Assembly: GCF_026241095.1 (NCBI RefSeq)
Contig: NZ_JAPFGB010000004.1
Location: 1 to 49,167, forward strand
Direction of reading: 5' to 3'
DNA: 49,167 bases
Source: Saccharopolyspora sp. NFXS83
Lineage (GTDB): Bacteria > Actinomycetota > Actinomycetes > Mycobacteriales > Pseudonocardiaceae
In this document: positions 29,183 through 37,178 of the stretch, in pieces
Position numbering within the stretch: the stretch's first letter is position 1
Layout of the letters: every line of letters starts with the position of its first letter
The notes under the pieces: model-generated
The model's database searches: none
Told to the model about the DNA's origin: nothing
What the model saw: the letters and a program-made list of their open reading frames with translations, nothing else
Made by a program: the position numbers and the translations under genes

Positions 29183-29722
29183 TTACGCGGTCGCCTTCGG
29201 CTTCGTCTTGTTCGTCTTGTGCGGCGCCAGGACCATGATCATGTTACGGCCGTCCTGCTTCGGGTTGGCCTCGATGAACCCCAGTTCGGCGACGTCGTCG
29301 GCCAGCCGCTGCAACAGACGAAAGCCCAGCTCGGGACGCGACTGCTCACGACCGCGGAACATGATCGTCACCTTGACCTTGTGACCCTGACCGAGGAAGC
29401 GGGTGACGTGACCCTTCTTCGTCTCGTAGTCGTGCGGGTCGATCTTCGGCCGGAGCTTCTGCTCCTTGATGACGGTCTGCTGCTGGTTGCGGCGCGATTC
29501 GCGAGCCTTCTGCGCACTCTCGTACTTGAACTTGCCGTAGTCCATGAGCTTGCAGACCGGCGGGCGCGCCTGCGGGGCGACCTCGACAAGGTCCAGATCC
29601 GCTTCCTGCGCCAGGCGGAGCGCGTCCTCGATGCGGACGATGCCGACCTGTTCGCCGTTCGGTCCGACCAAGCGGACTTCGGGCACGCGGATGCGGTCGT
29701 TGATGCGCGTCTCCGTGCTGAT
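29183..29722 (-). CDS. infC: Translation initiation factor IF-3, starting at AUC
   Basis: Binds the 30S subunit and selects the correct start codon. The 179-residue product has the IF3-N domain ([19 protein letters not shown]..., about 1-75), the long linker helix ([31 protein letters not shown]) and the IF3-C domain (about 90-170). GTG at 29686 is a possible start but would remove the conserved N-terminal 12 residues. The frame extends to ATC at 29722, preceded by GAGGAGG (29727-29733) at 4 nt, followed by [11 protein letters not shown], the family's N terminus. IF3 genes commonly use non-AUG starts (AUU, AUC) for autoregulation, so I annotate AUC. Downstream of this in the cluster are rpmI and rplT. 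Confidence 0.95.
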
Positions 29723-30003
29723 GGGGCCTCCTCGGTTCGATGCTTCGGTCTTTCTGCAAGCCTCGGCGCGTGAAGCTCTGCCCCTGGACGTGCAGTAGTC
29801 CCACGCATTCCGGATTCCCGGAAGCGCGAGACCCTACTCCTACCGATCGAACCGGTACCGCAATACCGCTCATGCCACCGGCGCGGTGCGCCGATGTGAC
29901 CGGGACCCGGCGGCCTGAGAGTCGGCTGCACGGGTGGGAGCGGGGCTCCACTTTGCCGCCCCCGACTAAGCAGGGGCTGGTCGCTCATGTCAGGGTACCA
30001 GCC

Positions 30004-30420
30004 GTGAACGAACCGCAGTCGACCCCGCCCTCCGACGGCATCCCGGACGGATCGCAGGAGTTCAAGTCGAGCTTCGCCGCCGAGGCGGACACCGATCTCA
30101 ACGTCCGCGAGCTGGTGGATGTTCCCAGCGTCGAGGTGATCAGCCGCGCCGCGGTGATGCTGATGTCCTCCGCCGCGGAGAAGCTCGGCCTGGGCGACGA
30201 AGACCCGGACAACGCGCCTAGCCGGGACCTCGACGAGGCGCGGCGCCTGATCACCGCGCTCGCCGGCCTGGTCACGGCGTCGGTGGAGTACCTGGGGCTG
30301 CACGCCGCGCCGATCCGGGACGGGCTGCAGAGCCTGCAGCGCGCGTTCCGCGAAGCGAGCGCCGTGCCCGACGCACCGGGCCAAGGCCCCGGCGAGAAGT
30401 ACACCGGGCCGGTGCACTGA
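30004..30420 (+). CDS. DUF1844 protein
   Basis: A 138-residue soluble protein with the DUF1844 core VEVISRAAVMLMSSAAEKLGL (about residues 41-60) and DLDEARRLITALAGLVTASVEYLG after it. It is a conserved neighbour of infC in actinobacteria, function unknown. GTG at 30004 is the first in-frame start compatible with the conserved region; a nearby ATG at 29987 is out of frame with a quick stop. The 281-bp infC-DUF1844 gap (29723-30003) carries promoters in both directions by position, but no convincing -35/-10 pair and no gene. Confidence 0.9.
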   Translation: MNEPQSTPPSDGIPDGSQEFKSSFAAEADTDLNVRELVDVPSVEVISRAAVMLMSSAAEKLGLGDEDPDNAPSRDLDEARRLITALAGLVTASVEYLGLHAAPIRDGLQSLQRAFREASAVPDAPGQGPGEKYTGPVH

Positions 30421-30444
30421 CCCGGTCCCGCCGCTCGCGGTCGC

Positions 30445-30975
30445 TCAGTCGCCGCCGTAGTACGGGTGGGTGAGCCGGTCGCGTTCCTCGACGAGGCCGC
30501 GGACGCGTTCCTTGGTGTGACCGGTGACGGCGTCCCGGACCGCCTCACCGACCGCTTCCCGCGCGGAGAAGCGGACCGCGGTCTCGTCGTCGGCGTCGTG
30601 GTCCAGCCACAACGACACGAAGACCATCGTCTCCTGGTCGGCTTCCAGCAGGCCGTCGGCCACCGAGTCCAGCACGCCTTGCGCGACGCCGACCTGGCTC
30701 GCCCCGAAGACCAGCGCCGCGGTCCGCCCCGAGGCCGCGACCTCGTGCCCGACCAGCAACGTCGGCGGCTGCACCGCCGTGCAGGAATCGCGGTCCTCGC
30801 CGACCGAGACCAGGATCGGCGCGAGCCGCTCGGTCGGGACCGTGAGCGTGGTCAGCAGCCCGGCGGCGGTGGTGCCGCCACGGCGGGCGAGCACCACGAT
30901 CACCCGGCATCCGTTGGGTTTGCGTCCGCCCCAGCCTTGCGCGAGCCGGCCGTCGAGGTCGCCGAACGTGGTCAT
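30445..30975 (-). CDS. Divergent formaldehyde-activating-enzyme (Fae) homologue
   Basis: A 176-residue protein that matches the Fae family in length and along most of its C-terminal half: LVFGASQVGVAQGVLDSVADG (88-108) corresponds to Fae's MFGPAQxGVAxAVxDAVAxG, the FVSLWLDHDADDETAV stretch to its FIHWEA..DD region, and the end EERDRLTHPYYG to Fae's EQRKSATHPF. Fae condenses formaldehyde with tetrahydromethanopterin using a near-N-terminal His in an EVAHIDL motif; by alignment that position is Arg24 here (NGCRVIVV). So the fold is supported but formaldehyde activation is doubtful. ATG at 30975 has AAGGAGGG. It is downstream of ridA on the same strand, with a hairpin and possible promoter between. 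Confidence 0.75.
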   Translation of the reverse strand: MTTFGDLDGRLAQGWGGRKPNGCRVIVVLARRGGTTAAGLLTTLTVPTERLAPILVSVGEDRDSCTAVQPPTLLVGHEVAASGRTAALVFGASQVGVAQGVLDSVADGLLEADQETMVFVSLWLDHDADDETAVRFSAREAVGEAVRDAVTGHTKERVRGLVEERDRLTHPYYGGD

Positions 30976-31034
30976 GCACGCCCTCCTTGGCTGCCGCGCC
31001 GGGCGGGCCGGGCGGACCGGGGTGACTGATCGAC

Positions 31035-31077
31035 ACCTTCCGAGCACCGCACCCGCTTGTCAAGGTCGGGTGCGGTG
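31035..31077 (-). promoter_or_regulatory. Hairpin with TTGACA in its loop, upstream of the Fae-like gene
   Basis: CACCGCACCCG (31045-31055) and CGGGTGCGGTG (31067-31077) form a perfect 11-bp stem. The loop, read on the minus strand, contains TTGACA (31058-31063), and 17 nt further is GAAGGT (31035-31040). It could be the ridA terminator, the promoter of the Fae-like gene, or both. Confidence 0.45.
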
Positions 31078-31183
31078 AGCGGTCGACCGGCCGCGACCGG
31101 CCCACCGCGCACCGCACCGGACTTCAGCGCGACTGGTCCCCGGAACGGAGCAACCTGCGACGACGGGCACCGGCCGCCGGGCG

Positions 31184-31573
31184 TCAGTCGCCGAGGACCG
31201 CGAGCGCGTCGATCTCCACGAGCAGGCCCGCGGGCAGGCCGACGTAGACGGTGGTGCGGGCCGGGTAGGGCTCGCCGACCACGCGGGCGTAGGTCTCGTT
31301 CATCTCCGCGAACTGCGAGACGTCGGTGAGGTACACGCGCAGCATCAGCACGTCCTCCAGCCCGGCGCCTGCGGCTTCGAGCACGGCGATGACGTTGCGC
31401 AGCGCGCGCTCGGTCTGCTCGGGGACGCCGCCCGCGACGAGCTCACCGGTGGCGGGGTCGACCGGGGTCTGCCCGGAGACCTGCACGACGTTGCCCTTGC
31501 GCACGCCGGGCGAGAGCGGGATGTGCGGCGGCGGGGTCGGGGCGTCGCTGCTCGTGATGATGGTCCTGGGCAT
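31184..31573 (-). CDS. ridA: RidA-family imine deaminase
   Basis: Hydrolyses reactive enamine/imine intermediates released by PLP dehydratases and amino-acid oxidases. The 129-residue protein has the family features KGNVVQVSGQTPVDPATGELV and the active-site Arg106 in ARTTVYV, with Glu120. ATG at 31573 has GGAGGAACC upstream. It is divergent from the D-serine-dehydratase-like gene at 31723, whose product would generate exactly the imines RidA removes; that supports a joint D-amino-acid pathway. Confidence 0.92.
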   Translation of the reverse strand: MPRTIITSSDAPTPPPHIPLSPGVRKGNVVQVSGQTPVDPATGELVAGGVPEQTERALRNVIAVLEAAGAGLEDVLMLRVYLTDVSQFAEMNETYARVVGEPYPARTTVYVGLPAGLLVEIDALAVLGD

Positions 31574-31661: not shown

Positions 31662-31722
31662 CTGCACCGTCCGAGTGCTTATCATCTCCCGATCAGATCG
31701 CGCTCATCGCACTGGAGGCCCC

Positions 31723-33027
31723 TTGCCCCGCTCAGCACCCGGCATCGACCAGCACGCGGTGGCACTGCTGCGCCAAGAGGTCCTCGACTGGCGGTTCAAG
31801 GGCCTGCCCGCCGAAGCGTTCGGGCGCACGGTCGAGGAATTCCTCGGCTCCGGGCCGACGCTGTTCGGCTCCGGTTTCACCGGCCCGGTGCTGACGCTGG
31901 ACGAGGCCGCGCTCACCCACAACCTGACGACGATGGCGCGGTGGTGCGACGCGCACGGGGTGCTGCTCGCCCCGCACGGGAAGACGACGATGGCGCCGCG
32001 GCTGTTCGAGCGGCAGCTGGAGCACGGGGCGTGGGGCATCACCGCGGCGAACCTCCCGCAGCTGCGGGTGTACCGGGCGTTCGGCGTGCGGCAGGTGCTG
32101 CTGGCGAACCAGCTGCTCGACCCGGCCGGGCTGCGCTGGCTGGGCGCCGAGCTCGACGCGGACCCGGAGTTCTCGGTGAGCTGCTGGGCGGACTCGGTCG
32201 ACGGGGTGGCGCTGATGACGCGCGCCCACACCGGCCGACGCCCGCTGGACGTGCTGGTGGAGCTGGGCTGGGACGGCGCCCGGACCGGCGCGAGGTCGGT
32301 GGAGCAGGCGCTCGAAGTGGCGCGGGCGGTCGCGGCGAGCCCGAACCTCCGCTTGGCGGGCGTGGGCGGCTACGAGGGCGCGGCGGCGCACGGCACCGCG
32401 GACTCCGCGCTGTCCACTGTGGATGAATACATGGCCAGGATGCGTTCGCTGGTGGGCGAGATCGAGCGCGCGGAGCTGTTCGAGACCGACGAGATCATCG
32501 TCACCGGCGGCGGCAGCGCCTACTTCGACCAGGTCGCGGAGTCCTTCGCCGCGCCGTGGCCGACGCGCGCGCGGGTGCTGCCGGTGCTGCGCAGCGGCGC
32601 GTACGTCACCCACGACGACGGGCTGTACCGGCGCAACTCCCCCTTCGGCCGCCCGCACCGGCTGGCGGGCGAGGAATCGCCGTTCCGGCCCGCGATGCGG
32701 ATCTGGGCGCAGATCACCTCCCGCCCCGAGCCCGGTCTGGCGCTGGCGACGATGGGGCGCCGCGACGTGTCCTTCGACCAGGACCTCCCGGAGCCGCAGG
32801 TGTTCCGCGGCGCCGACGGGGTGACGCGGGAGCTCCCGCCCGGTTCGTGCCGGGTGACCTCGCTCGCCGATCAGCACGCGTTCCTCGCCGTCGAAGGCGA
32901 CGAACCGCGCATCGGCTCCTGGGTCGGGTTCGGCCTGTCGCACCCGTGCACGGTCTTCGACAAGTGGCCGCTGATCCCGGTGGTCGACGGGGAGAACGTG
33001 GTCGACCTGGTGCGCACCTACTTCTGA
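31723..33027 (+). CDS. D-serine dehydratase-like / amino-acid deaminase, fold type III PLP enzyme
   Basis: A 434-residue fold-III PLP enzyme of the alanine-racemase-N / D-threonine-aldolase / eukaryotic-type D-serine dehydratase family. The Schiff-base Lys87 lies in APHGKTTMAP after the PVLTLDEAALTHNLTTM start. The C-terminal domain has HPC (His407, Cys409) in GLSHPCTVFDKW, the zinc-binding pair of DSD-type D-serine dehydratases, so a zinc-dependent dehydratase/deaminase is likely. The start is TTG at 31723 with GGAGG 4 nt upstream; earlier in-frame codons give residues outside the family. First gene of a run with deacylase and permease, opposite ridA. Confidence 0.87.
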   Translation: MPRSAPGIDQHAVALLRQEVLDWRFKGLPAEAFGRTVEEFLGSGPTLFGSGFTGPVLTLDEAALTHNLTTMARWCDAHGVLLAPHGKTTMAPRLFERQLEHGAWGITAANLPQLRVYRAFGVRQVLLANQLLDPAGLRWLGAELDADPEFSVSCWADSVDGVALMTRAHTGRRPLDVLVELGWDGARTGARSVEQALEVARAVAASPNLRLAGVGGYEGAAAHGTADSALSTVDEYMARMRSLVGEIERAELFETDEIIVTGGGSAYFDQVAESFAAPWPTRARVLPVLRSGAYVTHDDGLYRRNSPFGRPHRLAGEESPFRPAMRIWAQITSRPEPGLALATMGRRDVSFDQDLPEPQVFRGADGVTRELPPGSCRVTSLADQHAFLAVEGDEPRIGSWVGFGLSHPCTVFDKWPLIPVVDGENVVDLVRTYF

Positions 33028-33060: not shown

Positions 33061-34650
33061 ATGGACGGGGTGTTCCGCGCGGCGACGATCGTCGACGGTT
33101 CCGGGCAGGACCGCTACCGCGGCGACGTCGCGGTCCGCGGTGAGCGGATCGCCGAGATCGGCCCGCCGGGCACGCTCGACGGGCGGCGGGTGCTCGACGC
33201 CGAGGGCCTGGTGCTCGCACCGGGTTTCATCGACATGCACTCGCACTCCGACCTGCAGATCCTCGCCGAGCCGGACCACCTGGCGAAGGTCTCGCAGGGC
33301 GTGACGCTGGAGGTGCTGGGCCAGGACGGTCTGTCGTACGCGCCGGTCGACGACGCGACGCTGGCGGCGGTGCGGGCGCAGATCGCGGGCTGGAACGACG
33401 ACCCGCCCGGTTTCGACTGGAACTGGCGCGGCGTCGGCGAGTACCTCGCGCGGCTGGACACCGGGATCGCGGTCAACGCCGCGTACCTGGTGCCGCAGGG
33501 CACCCTGCGAATGCTGTGCGTCGGCCACGACGACCGGGACGCCACGGCCGCCGAGCTGGACCGGATGCGGCAGGTGCTCGCGGACTCGCTCGCCGAAGGC
33601 GCCGTCGGCATGTCGTCGGGGCTGACCTACACGCCGGGCATGTACGCCTCGGACGCGGAGCTGACCGAGCTGTGCCGGGTCGTGGCCGCGCACGGCGGCT
33701 TCTACAGCCCGCACCACCGCAGCTACGGTGCGGGGGCGCTCACGGCGTACGCGGAGATGATCGAGGTGAGCCGCACTTCCGGCTGCCCGCTGCACCTGGC
33801 GCACGCGACGATGAACTTCGAGGTGAACCGGGGCCGCGCGCCCGAGCTGCTGTCCCTCGTCGACGATGCGCTCGCCGCGGGCGCGGACATCACGATGGAC
33901 AGCTACCCGTACCTGCCGGGGGCGACCTCGCTGCACGCGCTGCTGCCGAGCTGGGCCGCCGAAGGCGGTGTCGAGGCGACGCTGGCGCGGCTGCGGAATC
34001 CGGCCGACCGGCTGCGGATCCGGCACACCATGGAGGTGGCGGGCTCCGACGGCTGCCACGGGGTGCCGATCGACTGGGCGACCATCGAGATCAACGGGGT
34101 GCGCGACGCCGAGCGCAACGGGCACCTGGTGGGGCGCAGCATCGCCGAATCCGCCCGGGCTTCCGGCGCGGAACCCGCCGAGGTGTTCTTCGACGTGCTG
34201 GTGTCCGAGCGGCTAGGCACCTCCTGCCTGATGCACGTCGGGCACGAGGAGAACGTGCGCGCGATCATGCGCCACCCCGCGCACACCGGCGGCAGCGACG
34301 GGCTGCTGGTCGGTGCCCGGCCGCACCCGCGCGCGTGGGGGACCTTCCCCCGCTACCTGGGGCACTACGTGCGGGAACTGGGCGTGCTGAGCCTGGAGGA
34401 ATGCGTCCGGCACCTCACCTCGCGGGCCGCGGACCGGTTGCGGCTGCCCGATCGCGGTCGCGTGCGGGAGGGCGCGGTCGCGGATCTGGTGCTGTTCGAC
34501 CCGGACGCCATCGCCGACACCGCCACCTTCGACGAGCCCCGCAGCACGGCCGCGGGGATGCATCAGGTGCTGGTCAACGGGGTGCCCGTCCTCGACTCCG
34601 GGCGGCGCACCGACGCGCTGCCCGGTCGTGCGGTACGCCGCACCTCCTGA
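33061..34650 (+). CDS. N-acyl-D-amino-acid deacylase, amidohydrolase superfamily
   Basis: A 529-residue amidohydrolase. It has the two-domain form with a composite urease-type beta-sandwich, VLAPGFIDMHSHSD (the HxH at residues 60 and 62), a conserved LHLAHA (one metal ligand), VGHEENVRAIM and GGSDGLL (Asp). The D-aminoacylase metal Cys usually in VGNCGFS is here in the VLGQDGLSYAP segment as Asp89, a variant. Releases D-amino acids from N-acyl-D-amino acids. ATG at 33061 has GGAGG 5 nt upstream. Second gene of the D-amino-acid operon; its product could feed the enzyme upstream and the permease downstream. Confidence 0.88.
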   Translation: MDGVFRAATIVDGSGQDRYRGDVAVRGERIAEIGPPGTLDGRRVLDAEGLVLAPGFIDMHSHSDLQILAEPDHLAKVSQGVTLEVLGQDGLSYAPVDDATLAAVRAQIAGWNDDPPGFDWNWRGVGEYLARLDTGIAVNAAYLVPQGTLRMLCVGHDDRDATAAELDRMRQVLADSLAEGAVGMSSGLTYTPGMYASDAELTELCRVVAAHGGFYSPHHRSYGAGALTAYAEMIEVSRTSGCPLHLAHATMNFEVNRGRAPELLSLVDDALAAGADITMDSYPYLPGATSLHALLPSWAAEGGVEATLARLRNPADRLRIRHTMEVAGSDGCHGVPIDWATIEINGVRDAERNGHLVGRSIAESARASGAEPAEVFFDVLVSERLGTSCLMHVGHEENVRAIMRHPAHTGGSDGLLVGARPHPRAWGTFPRYLGHYVRELGVLSLEECVRHLTSRAADRLRLPDRGRVREGAVADLVLFDPDAIADTATFDEPRSTAAGMHQVLVNGVPVLDSGRRTDALPGRAVRRTS

Positions 34651-34668: not shown

Positions 34669-36060
34669 GTGGATGGTTTAGTGCACTGGTTGCAGCAGGA
34701 GACCTCAGGTCTGCTCACGTTGTGCGCGGTGGGCATCGCCGCATTGCTGCTGATGATCATCCGGTTCCGGGTGGAGCCGTTCATCGCACTGATCATCACC
34801 GGGTTGCTGCTGGCGCTCGCCGCCGGAGTGCCCGTCACCGACCTCGTCGGCTCCGCGCAGAAGAGCAGCGAATCGCTGCTGGAGAGCGGATTCGGCAGCA
34901 TCCTCGGCCACATCACCGCGATCGTCGGTCTCGGCGCCATCCTCGGCTCGATCCTGGAGGCCTCCGGCGGCGCGCAACTGCTGACCCGCAGGCTGCTCGC
35001 CGCCTTCGGAGAGAACCGGGCGCCGCTGGCGATGGGGTTGTCCGGGCTACTGTTCGGCATCCCGGTGTTCTTCGACATCGGCATCTTCGTGCTCGCGCCG
35101 CTGGTCTACACCGCCGCCCGGCAAGGCGGGCGCTCGATCCTGCTGTACTGCCTGCCGCTGGTCGCGGGCCTGTCGATGACGCACGCGTTCCTGCCGCCGC
35201 ACCCCGGGCCCGTGGTGGCCGCCGGGCTGCTGGGAGTGGATCTCGGCTGGATCATCCTGATGGGCCTGGCCTGCGGCATTCCCGCGTTCGTCGTGGCGGG
35301 CGTGCTGTTCCCGTCCTGGATCGGCAAGCGCATCCACGTGGACGTGCCGGACACCGCGCCGCCCGCCGAGCTCACCTCGGAGTCCGGCGAGGAGCCGAAG
35401 CTCGGCGTCGTCGCGCTCGTCATCGGGCTGCCGATGCTGCTGATCCTCGGCGGCACCTTCGCCAGCATCACGCTGCCCGCCGGCGCGGCGCTGGACGTGC
35501 TGACGTTCCTGGGCAATCCGGTGGTGGCGCTGACCATCGCGGTGCTGACCGCGTTCTGGCTGCTGGGCACCCGGCGCGGTCTCACCGGGCCGGACCTGGC
35601 CACGCTGACGGCGGCGGCGCTGCGACCGCTGGGCATGATCCTTCTGGTCGTCGGCGCGGGCGGGTTCTTCGGCAAGGTGCTCTCCGAGACCGGCGTGGGC
35701 GACGCGCTCGCCGGGTCGCTGCAGGCCTCCGGGCTGCCGCTGATCGTGTCGGCGTACGTGATCAGCTCCGGGCTGCGGATCGCGCAGGGCTCGGCGACGG
35801 TGGCGATCGTGACCACCGGCGGCATCGTGGCGCCGCTGCTGGCAGGCGCCGACTACTCGCAGCCCCGGCTGGCGCTGATCGCGGTGGCCATCGCCGCGGG
35901 TTCGATCATCGCCTCGCACGTCAACGACGGCGGGTTCTGGATCATCTCGCGGTACTTCGGGATCTCCGTCAAGGACATGATCAAGACCTGGACGGTGCTG
36001 GAGACGATCCTGTCGCTGACCGGCTTCGGCATGGCCGCCCTGCTGAGCCTGCTGGTGTAG
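34669..36060 (+). CDS. GntP/DsdX-family permease
   Basis: A 463-residue membrane protein with about 12 hydrophobic segments, first at about 16-32 and last near 445-462. GntP family members import gluconate, D-serine (DsdX) or related acids with protons. Features are FFDIGIFVLAPLVYTAARQ, HAFLPPHPGPVVAAG and SHVNDGGFWIISRYFG, all GntP signatures. The third gene in this operon; the neighbouring D-amino-acid enzymes favour a D-serine or N-acyl-D-amino-acid substrate over gluconate. GTG at 34669 follows AAGGAG by 7 nt. A perfect hairpin terminator follows at 36068. Confidence 0.88.
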   Translation: MDGLVHWLQQETSGLLTLCAVGIAALLLMIIRFRVEPFIALIITGLLLALAAGVPVTDLVGSAQKSSESLLESGFGSILGHITAIVGLGAILGSILEASGGAQLLTRRLLAAFGENRAPLAMGLSGLLFGIPVFFDIGIFVLAPLVYTAARQGGRSILLYCLPLVAGLSMTHAFLPPHPGPVVAAGLLGVDLGWIILMGLACGIPAFVVAGVLFPSWIGKRIHVDVPDTAPPAELTSESGEEPKLGVVALVIGLPMLLILGGTFASITLPAGAALDVLTFLGNPVVALTIAVLTAFWLLGTRRGLTGPDLATLTAAALRPLGMILLVVGAGGFFGKVLSETGVGDALAGSLQASGLPLIVSAYVISSGLRIAQGSATVAIVTTGGIVAPLLAGADYSQPRLALIAVAIAAGSIIASHVNDGGFWIISRYFGISVKDMIKTWTVLETILSLTGFGMAALLSLLV

Positions 36061-36215: not shown

Positions 36216-37178
36216 ATGACCAACACGACCATGCGGGCCATCGGCCAGGACGAGCTCGGCGGACCGGAGGTGCTGCACGAGACGACCGTGCCGCGACCGT
36301 CCCCGCTGCCCACCGAGGTGCTGGTGCGCGTCGTGTCCGCCGGGGTCAACCCGGTGGACTGGAAGACCCGCGAAGGCGGCGGCATGGCAGGCGTGCTCGG
36401 CGAGCCGCCGTTCGTCCTCGGCTGGGACGTCTCCGGCTTCGTCGAGGAGACCGGATTCGGCGTGCACACCGCCGGGGACGAGGTCTACGGCATGCCGTGG
36501 TTCCCGCGCCAAGCGGGCGCCTACGCGGAGTACGTGACCGCGCCGGCCCGGCAGTTCGCCCGCAAGCCCGAGGCGCTGAACCACGACCAGGCGGCCGGGG
36601 TGCCGCTGGCGGCGCTGACCGCGTGGCAGAGCCTGGTGGACCTCGCCGGGATCTCCCGAGGGCAGCGGGTGCTGGTGCACGCGGCCTCCGGCGGGGTGGG
36701 GCACTTCGCGGTGCAGATCGCCAAGCACTTCGGCGCGCACGTGATCGGGACCGCCAGCGCGGGCAAGCACGACTGGGTGCGCGGGCTCGGCGCCGACGAG
36801 GTGATCGACTACCGGGAGACCCGCTTCGAGGAGGTCACCGGCGACATCGACGTGGTCCTCGACCTCGTCGGTGACGGCGTCGACGACACCAGCACCCACT
36901 CGCTCGACGTGCTCAAGCCGGACGGGCTGCTGATCGCGGTGCCCTCGGGCGTCGCCCCCGAACTGCTGGAGCGGGCCCTGCTCCACGGCGTGCGCGCCAC
37001 CGGATACCTGGTCGAGCCGGACGGGGCCGCGCTGCGCAGGATCGGCGAGCTCATCGACGACGGCACGATCTCCGTGGAGATCGACGAGGTGCTCCCGCTG
37101 GCGCAGGCGGCCGAAGCGCACCGCCGCGGTCAGAGCGGCGAGGTCCGCGGCAAGCAGGTGCTGCGCGTCGCCCCGTGA
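36216..37178 (+). CDS. NADP-dependent quinone-oxidoreductase-like MDR protein
   Basis: A 320-residue zinc-free MDR oxidoreductase similar in type to the one at 9755. Features: AGVNPVDWKTREGGG near residue 42, GWDVSGFVEETG, PLAALTAWQSL and the NADPH-binding VLVHAASGGVGHFAVQIAK. Zinc ligands of alcohol dehydrogenases are missing. ATG at 36216 follows AGGAAAAAGGATC. It stands between hairpin terminators (36068-36093 and 37185-37215), so it is probably a single-gene unit. Reduction of quinones or reactive enals is the family role; the physiological substrate is unknown. Confidence 0.9.
   Translation: MTNTTMRAIGQDELGGPEVLHETTVPRPSPLPTEVLVRVVSAGVNPVDWKTREGGGMAGVLGEPPFVLGWDVSGFVEETGFGVHTAGDEVYGMPWFPRQAGAYAEYVTAPARQFARKPEALNHDQAAGVPLAALTAWQSLVDLAGISRGQRVLVHAASGGVGHFAVQIAKHFGAHVIGTASAGKHDWVRGLGADEVIDYRETRFEEVTGDIDVVLDLVGDGVDDTSTHSLDVLKPDGLLIAVPSGVAPELLERALLHGVRATGYLVEPDGAALRRIGELIDDGTISVEIDEVLPLAQAAEAHRRGQSGEVRGKQVLRVAP

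Follow-up and report, generated by a model that had tools for sequence, protein, structure and literature searches.

A genus-specific, remodeled relative of the formaldehyde-activating enzyme in Saccharopolyspora

The Fae-like gene and its surroundings

The window, i.e., the whole stretch of DNA analyzed here, comprises 49,167 nucleotides of Saccharopolyspora sp. NFXS83 (contig NZ_JAPFGB010000004.1, positions 1 to 49,167 of the forward strand). It harbors a gene for a relative of the formaldehyde-activating enzyme (Fae), flanked by a DUF1844 gene and a RidA-like gene, beyond which lie genes for a D-serine-dehydratase-like protein, an amidohydrolase that appears to be of the D-aminoacylase type, and a permease (Table 1). 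As judged from its sequence, the Fae-like product is a real Fae relative under constraint, a remodeled paralogue specific to the genus.

Table 1. Coordinates of the Fae-like gene and of neighboring features in the window
Feature	Position	Strand	Remarks
DUF1844 gene	30004..30420	+	PF08899, 33.1 bits; transcribed toward the Fae-like gene; marker of the infC junction
Fae-like gene, 176 aa	30445..30975	-	ATG at 30975; PF08714; R24/I26/R50/H77 in place of H/N or D/G/K of the family
RidA-Fae intergenic region, 208 bp	30976..31183	-	AAGGAGG site; conserved CTTGACA-N17-GAAGGT block at 31035-31064
RidA-like gene (Ribonuc_L-PSP)	31184..31573	-	PF01042, 108 bits; upstream of the Fae-like gene, same strand
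D-serine-dehydratase-like gene	31723..33027 (scripted start call)	+	PF14031 and PF01168, run on 31690-33027
Amidohydrolase gene	33061..34650	+	PF07969, 155 bits
GntP-family permease gene	34669..36060	+	PF02447, 430 bits

The gene order is constant in the six genomes of the genus: infC, DUF1844 and the Fae-like gene in convergent orientation, RidA, and then the divergent D-serine-dehydratase-like, amidohydrolase and GntP genes. The statement of the initial annotation that ridA and D-amino-acid genes sit beside the Fae-like gene was thus borne out. Of 100 family genomes, 83 have a DUF1844 match, and infC adjoins DUF1844 in all 30 best-scoring loci. In several of these 30, the infC-DUF1844 pair is followed by RidA, an arrangement whose counterpart in the window spans positions 29183 to 31573. 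At 27 DUF1844 loci of other genera, the best-scoring of 80 such matches, RidA adjoins DUF1844 in 11 cases and a D-serine-dehydratase-like gene does so in 3, the remaining 13 having neither, and no Fae gene was found within the 1.5-kb flanks of any of the 27. Conservation of the Fae-like gene with RidA was thus not seen beyond the genus. Because RidA and DUF1844 genes are adjacent without Fae in other genera, the neighborhood is weak evidence of the function of the Fae-like gene. A functional connection with RidA and with the metabolism of D-amino acids, which had been drawn from this proximity, found no support, in view of these counts and of the separate upstream block described below, and a RidA operon as the cause was rejected, as no Fae gene was found at the 27 loci. 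In the simplest reading of these gene orders, the Fae-like gene would have been inserted into an older DUF1844/RidA junction.

RidA and the Fae-like gene, which are on the same strand, are separated by 188 to 262 bp across the six genus genomes, and a CTTGACA-N17-GA(A/G)GGT block is conserved upstream of the Fae-like gene in all six. The TTGACA-like element reported in the initial annotation is therefore real, although a scan of the region for consensus promoters and terminators returned 0 sites at the scanner's own threshold. The strong ribosome-binding site reported with it was also found, the AAGGAGG sequence being located just upstream of the ATG. Two near-identical palindromes, GAACGG-A/T-CCGTTC, are present in the RidA-Fae region of two genomes (G001 and G002, loci L077 and L078) and are aligned to gaps in the other four; they are perhaps the operator of a regulator.

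Match to the Fae family and replaced active-site residues

Fae is a multimer that binds its pterin between subunits, and the His residue of its EVAHIDL motif is catalytic. The PF08714 profile matched the window protein with 64.6 bits (E value, 1.4e-17), above its gathering score of 27, which agrees with the assignment to the Fae family made in the initial annotation, and the Fae-like length and C-terminal motifs noted at the time are seen in the alignment. This local match links residues 27 to 172 of the protein to positions 17 to 158 of the profile, starting just past the altered His position. The score with TIGR03126, the NCBI equivalog model of Fae, is far below its cut-off (54.8 bits, compared with 118.05). 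On the same scale, the Fae proteins of H4MPT operons from Phyllobacterium and Azoarcus plasmids score 252 bits each, four higher-scoring actinobacterial Fae proteins score 137 to 165 bits, and three divergent Fae proteins that have the His residue (His-type) score 58 to 73 bits. A phmmer search of PDB sequences matched Fae (1y5y/1y60) with an E value of 2.4e-9 over residues 69 to 173 of the window protein, and an hhalign profile comparison of the six orthologues with six Fae proteins, two of them from H4MPT operons, gave 99.0% probability over 158 columns.

In the alignment, Arg24 stands in the place of the His of EVAHIDL, as the initial annotation had claimed. No gaps intervene when the paralogue of the same genome is used for comparison, since the first 80 positions of the two proteins align without any gap. 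More is altered than had been claimed, as four sites are affected. In an alignment of 61 homologues, these read R24-I26-R50-H77 in all six genus orthologues, while the 55 others have H, G and K at three of them in every case and N (52 sequences), D (2) or T (1) at the fourth, with near-identical pairs (G001/G002) included in the counts. These 55 sequences are 5 genus paralogues, 1 MAG sequence and 2 plasmid sequences, together with 23 homologues found in the family outside the genus, 9 found in the class and 15 found in the phylum; two weak partial matches (L141 and L142) and L138, which is the same gene as L046, were left out. The replacement is not kept by homologues across actinobacteria, a point that the initial annotation had raised; as 0 of the 55 carry it, a general active-site change in actinobacteria was rejected. 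The Asp of HIDL is itself variable outside the window type, being Asn (52) or Thr (1) in all 53 actinobacterial His-type Fae proteins and Asp in both Fae proteins of H4MPT operons. A column scan of a 30-row alignment (A1; 4 window-type and 26 other sequences), which retained columns at least 70% uniform elsewhere and letters present in no other row, yielded seven letters fixed in the window type only, R24, I26, T35, G39, R50, H77 and H126.

Distribution, relatives and selection

The genome under study (G000) contains two PF08714 genes. The second (C12), which the initial annotation had missed, codes for a His-bearing protein 59% identical to the window protein. The window type is present in all six genus genomes searched, with 75 to 98% identity in the other five, and is known from these six genomes, two of which are near-identical in this gene; no window-type gene occurs among the 55 other homologues. 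A second PF08714 copy, of 48 to 60% identity, was found in five of the six genomes; no paralogue was found in G005, where only the window type was detected. At larger scale, 29 of the 200 family genomes searched carry PF08714 genes, as do 10 of 394 in the class, and a search of 396 genomes of the phylum with the window protein gave matches in 19. The family matches split by score into a higher group (157 to 185 bits) and a divergent group (61 to 93 bits) that includes the window type. Matches on plasmids were all in proteobacterial records and less than 60% identical (19/19).

Mch was detected in none of the 200 family genomes, including that under study and the 29 that carry PF08714 genes, and Ftr in none of the six genus genomes. 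A mycothiol-dependent formaldehyde dehydrogenase scored above the model cut-off in all six genus genomes. The premise of the initial annotation, a host that lacks H4MPT and uses mycothiol, is in agreement with these results. According to a review (PMC8879981), Amycolatopsis methanolica and Rhodococcus erythropolis rely on a mycothiol-dependent formaldehyde dehydrogenase, and no H4MPT-dependent pathway was found in the former.

The divergent His-type relatives have a different genetic context. In 12 of their 13 loci in the family (L079-L090), a Zn-alcohol-dehydrogenase gene of one subfamily (61 to 90% identical to the L089 dehydrogenase) is located on the strand of Fae, one to four genes upstream, and in five of them (L083, L084, L086, L088, and L090) the two genes overlap or are at most 10 bases apart. 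Two of these dehydrogenases scored below the cut-offs of both the NDMA-dependent alcohol dehydrogenase model (361 to 365 bits, cut-off 440) and the mycothiol-dependent formaldehyde dehydrogenase model (262 to 302 bits, cut-off 512.9). The thirteenth locus is that of G000, where the dehydrogenase is cut to approximately 158 residues and fused in frame to an IclR regulator (L072:8489-9739). G000 is a draft assembly, and G003 has separate dehydrogenase and IclR genes; the dehydrogenase called in G004 matches the 367-residue G003 protein over just 313 residues. The 19 higher-scoring actinobacterial Fae loci (L053-L067, L069-L071, and L091; L068 gave no gene calls) have an enolase-superfamily gene adjoining Fae in 12 cases. 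An aldehyde dehydrogenase is encoded somewhere in the locus in 17 of the 19, and a 3-hydroxyisobutyrate-dehydrogenase-like protein in 18. Some of the higher-scoring loci also carry a glycine-betaine-type ABC transporter. At the four loci from other classes whose Fae proteins are nearest to the window protein (L143-L146; 37 to 47% identity), an enolase gene adjoins Fae in all four and a related dehydrogenase gene is present in three. As no Mch or Ftr markers were found and the loci are linked to dehydrogenases, the His-type parent branch appears to work outside H4MPT metabolism, and its role is probably the oxidation of some alcohol or aldehyde.

An alcohol-dehydrogenase operon of the kind seen in the His-type relatives was also considered for the window type and rejected, since the oxidoreductase encoded at 36216-37178 is only 25 to 26% identical to that of L089. 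Its gene is five genes away from the Fae-like gene, on the opposite strand, and is found in single-linkage cluster c4 in four of the six window-type loci.

In an IQ-TREE phylogeny of 30 of the 61 rows, the window type forms one clade (support, 100/100) nested within the divergent His-type clade. The root of this tree is uncertain, as the program warned of long branches that separate the H4MPT outgroup from the divergent clade. A possible sister of the window-type clade, composed of the Fae of G056 and the paralogues of G000, G003 and G004, is weakly supported (68/84). In G001, the second Fae copy clusters with that of genus g16 (98/92; loci L081 and L087), apart from the paralogues of G000, G003 and G004, and this placement suggests a transfer or an old duplication followed by loss.

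The window-type gene is kept under purifying selection and is not decaying. Its dN/dS ratios among G000, G003 and G004, which represent three species, are 0.060 to 0.082, against 0.165 to 0.274 for the His-type paralogue of these three (pairwise NG86 estimates, which are rough at high G+C). For the window type, the ratios rise to 0.14 to 0.19 against G005 and to 0.32 to 0.43 against the distant pair G001/G002; constraint thus looks weaker over longer distance, though dN/dS is still below 1. The window-type genes of the six genus genomes contain no stop codons.

Proposed role and comparison with known systems

We favor, with moderate confidence, the interpretation that the Fae-like gene of the window is a genus-specific paralogue of an H4MPT-free actinobacterial Fae branch, that Fae chemistry has been lost, and that the product is now a stand-alone binding or sensing protein. 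The window protein has probably become something other than a Fae enzyme, and it is probably a stand-alone binder of a small ligand. The Fae fold and oligomer would be kept, and the remodeled pocket, with its gain of two arginines and a histidine, would bind a small, probably anionic metabolite, such binding taking the place of formaldehyde-pterin condensation. The protein would be made from its own promoter and would bind or sense its ligand alone, without partnering the His-bearing paralogue. Given that no paralogue was found in G005 and that the paralogue operon of G000 has a truncated and fused dehydrogenase, the window gene is apparently independent of an intact paralogue system. The initial annotation had proposed a "repurposed carbonyl- or pterin-binding protein." That four sites of a constrained gene carry fixed replacements argues for the repurposing; as for the ligand, our preference would go to an anionic metabolite.

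The main rival to the anion-binding interpretation is a catalytic Lys/His swap, whereby the protein would still be an enzyme. The H24-to-R and K77-to-H changes together keep one cation and one His, with which the pocket could act on a new substrate by a similar aldehyde chemistry, and they occur jointly in all six orthologues and in none of the 55 other homologues, in a gene under purifying selection. However, the replacement of N/D by Ile and of the invariant Gly by Arg suggests wider remodeling, and we consider a swap of this kind unlikely. That the His/Lys swap gave rise, in a Fae branch outside C1-pterin metabolism, to a new stand-alone activity or sensor operating without methanopterin genes seems distinctly improbable. 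The protein may also have acquired a new catalytic activity that uses R24 and H77, instead of binding.

The initial annotation saw the protein as a partner of RidA and of the D-amino-acid genes that binds imine or aldehyde intermediates. The common strand with RidA and the identical neighbors in all six genus genomes would fit this proposal, but other genera have RidA-DUF1844 (11/27) or D-serine-dehydratase-DUF1844 (3/27) pairs without Fae (0/27), and the gene is set apart from RidA by a sizeable gap with its own conserved block, making such a partnership very doubtful. We give still less weight to co-assembly with the His-type paralogue, in which the protein would be a noncatalytic subunit or a regulator. 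The parent fold is multimeric and both copies coexist in five of the six genus genomes, but only the window type was found in G005, the G001 paralogue lies outside the sub-branch of the G000, G003 and G004 paralogues, and the paralogue operon is eroding in G000. Finally, the loss of residues that all other examined homologues keep might be that of a functionless duplicate in decay. This relic hypothesis was rejected, and retains hardly any credence, as the reading frames lack stops, the lowest dN/dS ratios (0.06 to 0.08) are below those of the His-type paralogue, and the upstream block is conserved.

None of the 29 family genomes with PF08714 genes possesses Mch, and one branch has replaced otherwise-kept residues under selection. 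The label "formaldehyde-activating enzyme" is therefore misleading for these genes. The natural replacement of the active site, with the window type and the His type in the same genome, offers a direct test of the role of this fold without methanopterin. In the titles and abstract openings covered by our literature survey, in which subscription papers were mostly not included, no actinobacterial Fae that lacks the active site is described.

Fae serves as a marker of formaldehyde metabolism in methylotrophs and is included among the marker genes of one publication (PMC3763247). Extra Fae homologues of unclear role are represented by Fae2 and Fae3 of Methyloversatilis universalis, and the corresponding study reports wild-type growth on methanol and methylamine for the fae2 and fae3 single and double deletion mutants (PMC5023235). 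M. universalis, in contrast, has the H4MPT pathway. Similarly, the Fae genes of the Phyllobacterium and Azoarcus plasmids sit among H4MPT genes, whereas Mch is missing from the genome under study and Ftr from the six genus genomes. Among the closest known relatives are the actinobacterial His-type divergent Fae proteins (C12 of G000; L079-L090), which are 47 to 62% identical to the window type and form one clade with it; they have the H-x-N, G and K residues and a linked Zn-alcohol dehydrogenase (a remnant in G000), and the window type has neither. With the methylotroph Fae (PF08714/TIGR03126; 1y5y, 1y60), the window type shares homology over nearly the full length, a similar length and the C-terminal motifs, but it has Arg for the His of HIDL, Ile for the Asp, Arg for the Gly and His for the Lys.
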